From contig JBBCHM010000001.1 in NCBI GenBank assembly GCA_037200045.1, forward strand, positions 2,232,001 through 2,296,000: a DNA stretch of 64,000 bases, given 5' to 3'. The translations under genes were made by a program, and so were the position numbers. Shown here piece after piece: positions 2,258 to 3,532 of this stretch (positions within the stretch are counted from its first letter, which is position 1; each line of letters begins with the position of its first letter). Source of the stretch: Rhizomicrobium sp. (GTDB lineage Bacteria; Pseudomonadota; Alphaproteobacteria; Micropepsales; Micropepsaceae). Under the pieces are notes generated by a model that ran no database searches, was not told the DNA's origin, and worked only from the letters and a program-made list of their open reading frames with translations.

Positions 2258-2279
2258 TGTCATGGCCCGCGCATGCGGG
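2258..2279 (+). repeat. Left half of a REP-like palindrome interrupted by IS110
   Basis: The 22 bases start TGTCATGGCCCGCG and end GCGGG. In intact copies (45701, 50339) GCGGG continues into CCACCCAG. Here the continuation is displaced to 3429 by the IS. Joining 2279 to 3429 restores a normal REP arm. Confidence 0.85.
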
Positions 2280-2290
2280 TGACTGTGTTG

Positions 2291-3241
2291 TCAGTCAAGC
2301 ATTTTGGCGGGATGCCAGGGGGTATCGGCTTTGACGATGCTGTTTGCCAGAGCGATGAGCTTTCGCGCGACGGCGACGATGGCGACTTTTCTGGGCTTTC
2401 CGGCGTCGACGAGCCGCCGATAGAAGGCCTTGAAGGTGGGATTGCAGCGGATGGCGGAGACCGCCGCCATATAGGCTGCGGTTCGCACGCAAGAGCGGCC
2501 GCCGCCGATATGATCGCTCCGCAGGGATGTTCCGCTGCGCTGGGGATGGGGGGCAAGACCGGCCAGGCTGGCGGCCTGATGGCGGTTGAGGCTTCCCAGC
2601 TCGGGCAGGTCGGTGATGAGGACGGATGCCACGACGGGTCCGATCCCCGGAATCGTGCGCAGCAGCTCGTTCCTGTGACGGATGGCGTCGTCCTGCGCGA
2701 TCGCCTGGGCGAGCGCGGCCTCGATGCGGCAGCGTTCGGCGTTGAGGCCGGCGATGACGGTTCGCAGGCTTTGAAGGACGAAGCGGTCGCGCGTCATCTT
2801 CAGCCGGGTCTTCTCCTGGACCAGGAGCTCGACCAGTTGGCGGCGCCGGGCCGACAGGCCGCGGATCGCTTCGGCCTTTTGGCTGGGAATGGGACGGATG
2901 TCATCCTCCGGCATGGCCAGAGCAAAGCGCGCGATGAGTTCGGCGTCGAGGGCATCGGTCTTGGCCCGCCGGCCCAGGAAGTTGCGATAGCCGCGCACCC
3001 GGCCGGGCTGGACGCGGGCGACCTGAAGGCCGGCGTCGCTCAACGCCCGGGCGGCCGGATACTCGAGCCCGCCGGTGGCCTCCAGCACGACCCGCTGCAC
3101 GCCGCGACGCTGCAATTGCCGGCGCAGCGCCGCGATCCCGCGCCCGGCATTGTCGAAGGCCAACGAGATGCGCTGCGGCAATACAAAAACATCCAGCCGG
3201 GCCTTCGACACGTCGATCCCGGCAACACAAAGTGCTGTCAT
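2291..3241 (-). CDS. IS110-family DEDD transposase (bridge-RNA-guided recombinase)
   Basis: The protein has 316 residues. The N-terminal RuvC-like DEDD domain shows [12 protein letters not shown] (first Asp), EATGG (Glu) and [12 protein letters not shown] (last two Asp). The C-terminal Tnp20 domain has [20 protein letters not shown] and [14 protein letters not shown], whose Ser is the expected nucleophile. I took ATG 3241 as start because [13 protein letters not shown] is the family N-terminus and GGCGAGGACC lies just upstream; the frame also stays open to an ATG at 3277. IS110 recombinases use a bridge RNA from the element's non-coding end to choose target and donor; that RNA is annotated separately. 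All catalytic residues are present, so the element looks active. Confidence 0.95.
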
Positions 3242-3251
3242 GAGATGGTCC

Positions 3252-3410
3252 TCGCCTGTATGCGGGCTCGCCGCCACGGCGACGGCCCTTCTGACTGTCC
3301 GGACAAACTCCTACGATGCCGCCGTGCGCAAACCCGCGTCTCGAACCGATCCGAAGGATCGTTCCGCCACCCAGCGCGCTACGGCAGCACCGGCAAGCTT
3401 AACAAGCCCG
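3252..3410 (-). ncRNA. IS110 bridge RNA with readable target- and donor-binding loops
   Basis: On the minus strand, upstream of the transposase, four guide-like segments occur in the canonical order. CTGGGTGGC (3374-3366) equals the left target plus first core base. GCGGG (3337-3333) is complementary to the core and right target CCCGC. ACAGTCA (3298-3292) equals the right-end donor flank just before the core. CATACAGG (3262-3255) is the reverse complement of the core plus left-end donor CCTGTATG. A perfect hairpin (CGATCC/GGATCG, 3347-3361) separates the target guides, and a GC-rich hairpin (about 3267-3289) separates the donor guides. This matches the two-loop architecture of IS621-type bridge RNAs. 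The exact 5' and 3' ends are estimates. Confidence 0.8.
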
Positions 3411-3426
3411 CAAGAACACACATACA

Positions 3427-3532
3427 GGCCACCCAGGTGACGCCGAGCACTGACCGCGAAACTTTAGACCCGCCTGAACTATCCGCCGCGTGCCGCTATC
3501 AACTGGGTGGCCCGCAGTCGCGGGCCATGACA
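3427..3532. repeat. Right half of the interrupted REP plus its inverted mate (BIME-like pair)
   Basis: GGCCACCCAGGTGACGCC starting at 3427 completes the arm broken at 2279. About 60 bases further an inverted copy occupies 3503-3532, starting CTGGGTGGCCCGC and ending GGGCCATGACA. Before insertion this was an ordinary inverted REP pair downstream of hslU, like those at 45701-45786 and 50339-50463. Confidence 0.85.

Follow-up and report, generated by a model that had tools for sequence, protein, structure and literature searches.

REP-specific elements of the IS110 family were catalogued in 2006, and in ISPpu9, ISPpu10, ISPa11 and ISRm19 every copy lies within REPs, with a 2-bp duplication described for ISPpu9 and ISPpu10 (PMC1525189). 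The guidance of such elements by a bridge RNA or seekRNA, including the covariation of guide and target, was published in 2024 (PMC11208160, PMC11187229). Elements of the IS110 group, as opposed to the IS1111 type, possess a long left non-coding end upstream of tnp and a short right end, and their subterminal inverted repeats comprise 2-3 bp, compared with 7-17 bp in IS1111 (PMC11208160). IS621 from E. coli, a member of the IS110 group (PDB 8wt6), has been reported to rebuild a promoter across the junction of its circle (PMC11208160). The mechanism is already published; the element described here is a new example of it, and its possible natural retargeting is the most interesting part.

The element is located in the window, by which we mean the whole 64-kb stretch of DNA that was analysed, and it interrupts a REP at the following positions.

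2259..2279, plus strand: left (5') part of the interrupted REP, GTCATGGCCCGCGCATGCGGG; the same type lies beside all 5 IS copies and matches the genome-wide REP
2278..2279, no strand assigned: core dinucleotide GG, target copy
2280..3428, minus strand: complete element, assigned to the IS110 group; 1,149 bp with one core copy included, 5 copies genome-wide
2291..3241, minus strand: recombinase, 316 aa, with DEDD_Tnp_IS110 and Transposase_20 domains; D10, E54, D96, D99 and S236 in conserved motifs
3427..3428, no strand assigned: core dinucleotide GG, element copy; with the target copy, the sole bases common to both junctions
3429..3441, plus strand: right (3') part of the interrupted REP, CCACCCAGGTGAC; first 12 bases identical in 5/5 copies
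3499..3531, minus strand: intact inverted mate of the interrupted REP; matches the REP consensus

The left flank ends with GTCATGGCCCGCGCATGCGGG (to 2279) and the right flank starts with CCACCCAGGTGACG (from 3429). When they are joined without the element, GTCATGGCCCGCGCATGCGGGCCACCCAGGTGACG results, which belongs to the same REP type as the minus-strand mate at 3499-3531 and the units at 45702-45734 and 50340-50372. The sequence-only reading of this DNA had proposed a precise insertion into a REP with only a two-base core shared at the junctions. Both proposals hold, as excision of 2280-3428 rebuilds the REP that pairs with the inverted mate, and the overlap of target and element is exactly GG (CC on the recombinase strand), the same at 5/5 copies. 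Its statement that an IS110 element is present was likewise borne out by the recombinase, in which a DEDD RuvC-like domain and a Transposase_20 domain with the conserved serine both exceed the Pfam cut-off in the profile search (PF01548 with 74.6 bits, PF02371 with 63.7 bits).

In phmmer comparisons with solved relatives the recombinase aligns over nearly its full length with those of ISCro4 (PDB 9t56; E 7e-36), the closest by sequence and likened here by the recombinase alone, and of IS621 (E 8e-31), to which the sequence relation is full-length but distant. In the alignment to both, SGTSL and another recombinase motif place D10, E54, D96, D99 and S236 where the DEDD/Ser active site of the IS621 recombinase has its residues. 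Non-coding DNA amounts to 187 bp upstream of the recombinase gene and only 11 bp downstream, an arrangement that fits the IS110 group rather than IS1111. With 6 bp, the subterminal inverted repeat AACACA/TGTGTT exceeds the 2-3 bp known from the IS110 group and lies between the ranges of the two types. On the basis of the Pfam domains and the relation to IS621 and ISCro4 we assign the element to the IS110 group. It resembles IS621 in its recombinase domains, in the positions of the DEDD and Ser motifs, in its REP target and in its 2-bp core, but the core is CC/GG here and CT in IS621, and the REP is a different one. ISPpu9, ISPpu10, ISPa11 and ISRm19 share the IS110 family and the confinement to REPs, but they occupy other REPs in other hosts, and ISPa11 is of the IS1111 type with its RNA downstream of tnp (PMC11187229).

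The 5 copies in the genome differ by 0-2 substitutions. They were all observed at the same REP position and in the same orientation, with identical junctions (...ATGGCCCGCGNNTGCGGG, element, CCACCCAGGTGA...) at unrelated loci, and their flanks agree over about 20 bp to the left and 12 bp to the right of the element. For random insertion into such a REP site in matching orientation, p is ~2e-5. That IS110-type elements target REPs, as the earlier reading had stated, agrees with the literature (PMC1525189) and with the location of 5/5 copies in a REP. The host offers this target in abundance: the uninterrupted REP ATGGCCCGCGNNTGCGGGCCACCCAG occurs 193 times genome-wide with at most 2 mismatches (97+96 on the two strands), compared with 0+0 in the reversed control, and the 33-nt REP consensus with at most 3 mismatches gives 3 matches in the 64-kb window, where 0 are expected from shuffles. 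We have very little doubt that this is an insertion sequence of the IS110 group that was active recently and whose bridge RNA is programmed to this abundant host REP. A preference for the GGTGA-type arm, seen in 5/5 insertions, was considered and dropped; about half of the sampled REPs are of the GGTGA type, and the preference may be chance.

As in IS621, the predicted bridge RNA lies in the long left end and shows the LTG/RTG/LDG/RDG layout. Its guides, assigned by the IS621 rules (PMC11208160), match the REP and the element's own ends.

3242..3428, minus strand: left-end non-coding region, predicted bridge RNA; 187 nt, MFE z = -3.7
3366..3374, minus strand: putative left target guide (LTG) CTGGGTGGC; 9 nt equal to the first core base and the REP sequence to its left, shuffle frequency 0.0027
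3333..3339, minus strand: putative right target guide (RTG) ACGCGGG; pairs with the core and 3 nt of the REP, then one mismatch
3292..3298, minus strand: putative left donor guide (LDG) ACAGTCA; matches the recombinase-stop end, frequency among shuffles 0.016, identical in the sister
3255..3262, minus strand: putative right donor guide (RDG) CATACAGG; complements the left end CCTGTATG, frequency among shuffles 0.0014, identical in the sister

The predicted fold of this RNA (-93.9 kcal/mol) is more stable than that of shuffles, and no relevant family was matched in an Rfam search. On the recombinase strand the target reads TCACCTGGGTGG-CC-CGCATG and the donor circle ACAACACAGTCA-CC-TGTATGTG. 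Complementarity of the guides was observed with exact matches of 9 nt for LTG, 7 nt for LDG and 8 nt for RDG, the core positions of LDG not matching. Among 20,000 dinucleotide shuffles the longest-match length was reached in 0.27% for LTG, 1.6% for LDG, 0.14% for RDG and 28% for RTG, and all four matches jointly in none (0/20,000). The match of RTG is not significant by itself; its 28% refers to a 6-nt word outside the target loop, and the assignment of RTG therefore rests on its position in the loop and on the alignment with the sister element described below. When the guides are used as a 16-base query (at least 13 matches), a query that was built once the target was known, the 3 intact REP units of the 64-kb window and nothing else are retrieved. 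From these matches we infer that insertion into the REP is RNA-guided, an interpretation which they support.

By analogy with IS621, the following course can be proposed. The element would excise as a circle, which would juxtapose a -35-like TTGACT and a -10-like TATGTG, 17 bp apart, across the CC core. Such promoter-like elements across the circle junction are a further likeness to IS621, and the pair could drive transcription of the bridge RNA. In the putative RNP, the target loop would pair with TGGGTGG-CC-CGC of the REP and the donor loop with ACAGTCA-CC-TGTATG of the circle, and the DEDD/Ser recombinase would then swap strands at the CC core. The expected outcome would be a clean insertion with one extra copy of the core and no further duplication or deletion.

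A close relative of the element was found among 69 genomes of the genus only in G074 (L185:1487-2646), with 75% amino acid identity. This sister element belongs to another species and resides in a different REP, with GG again at the junction (TCGTCGCCCGGCTTGTCCGGG, element, CGACCCATTTG; the REP itself reads TCGCCCGGCTTGTCCGGG/CGACCCA), and it possesses TTGACT and TATGTC at the same spacing. The donor guides are identical in both elements, as are the 20 bp at the recombinase-stop end, whereas the target-loop region has mostly diverged. Differences of guide and target were observed together: LTG of the sister reads (C)TGGGTCGC compared with CTGGGTGGC in the window RNA, its RTG reads TGTCCGGG, and these target guides fit their own REP over 8 nt each, left and right, compared with 5 and 4 for the window RNA at that site. 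The second, sister-type REP is present elsewhere in the genus too, with 33 occurrences in G013 and 13 in the genome of the window (at most 2 mismatches). The earlier proposal that the bridge RNA explains the targeting of REPs draws its strongest evidence from this comparison: the guides match target and donor, and the target guides of the sister differ in line with its different REP.

The same comparison bears on the view that the recombinase reads the hairpin or palindrome of the REP as a DNA structure and that the complementarity of the RNA is incidental. Indeed, REPs are palindromic and often paired, and both elements occupy corresponding positions within the 3' arm. However, the guides match sequence and not structure alone; LTG and RTG differ along with the target in the sister while the donor guides do not, and the four guide matches are not reproduced by shuffles. 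We think that recognition of structure is very unlikely. The two elements could reflect an IS110 lineage that tracks the changing REP families of its host, both target guides being naturally reprogrammed together and donor ends and guides staying fixed. We put this forward tentatively and somewhat short of favouring it, from a comparison of two elements. If it were true, REP turnover and the evolution of IS guides would be linked within the genus. The window element and its sister are two closely related elements found in nature with programmes for different REPs; the pair could be used to test how guides are reprogrammed in evolution and, with a CC core unlike the CT of IS621, as a starting point for recombinases of other core preference.

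It has also to be considered that the copies arose when a REP-IS-REP block was duplicated or spread by homologous recombination, and not by independent targeted insertion. They hardly differ and have one repeat in common at their flanks, as such a process would predict, but the REP flanks vary among copies (GCGCATGCGGG, GCGACTGCGGG, GCGAATGCGGG), mates and flanking genes vary as well, and the closest relative, G028 (HslU 97%), retains an empty REP at the locus of another copy, L005. Spread as a block is already disfavoured, and we regard it as extremely unlikely. The empty REP in G028 reads GGTGTCATGGCCCGCGAATGCGAGCCATCCAGGTGACGA compared with the predicted GGTGTCATGGCCCGCGAATGCGGGCCACCCAGGTGACGA, and it was observed to be gapless at the junction with two substitutions, one in the core (GCGAG) and the other in the left target. 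The prediction of the sequence-only reading that an empty site would restore the REP holds at this locus as far as the absence of an indel at the junction is concerned, but not to the letter. We read the two substitutions as species divergence, because the whole locus is only ~85% identical between G028 and the genome of the window. Together with the single mismatch of RTG to the REP, the non-significance of its match by itself, the unmatched core of LDG and the negative Rfam search, both substitutions count against targeting by the guides. That the REP pieces are the ends of a longer element would fit the common flanks of the 5/5 copies, but 193 REPs occur without the element, and this reading, to which we give practically no credence, is already refuted by the sister, in which the flanks differ but the 20 bp at the recombinase-stop end, as well as CCTGTATG at the opposite end, are conserved.

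At the window locus itself, REP pair and element are both absent in G028, where the neighbouring gene starts a few bases after the hslU stop codon, and in G070 the REP pair is absent and a different repeat is found, and neither shows at this place the empty REP that the sequence-only reading had predicted. The REP pair between hslU and the convergent gene (window 2251-3540, compared with L184) itself varies between species. No REP is present in G028 at the L002 locus, and the two flanks of the L003 locus were not found together in relatives. At the L004 locus, G070, G022 and G073 can be aligned across the site, and only ~10-16 bp separate the flanks, too few for the REP pair. In the orthologue of that locus in G028 (L182:255-1560), another segment of ~1.27 kb adjoins a residual REP arm, and it contains an ORF of 287 aa that appears DUF3800-like by eye.

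The REP is present in 45/60 genomes of the genus in widely variable numbers, with a maximum of 307 in one genome. A Y1_Tnp (RAYT) gene was not found in the genome of the window (96% complete) despite its ~193 REP units. Among REP variants, both in units across the genus and at 45746-45785 of the window, the stem changes are paired (ATGGCCCGC..GCGGGCCA, ATCGCCCGC..GCGGGCGA and ATAGCCCGC..GCGGGCTA), which suggests selection on the putative hairpin.
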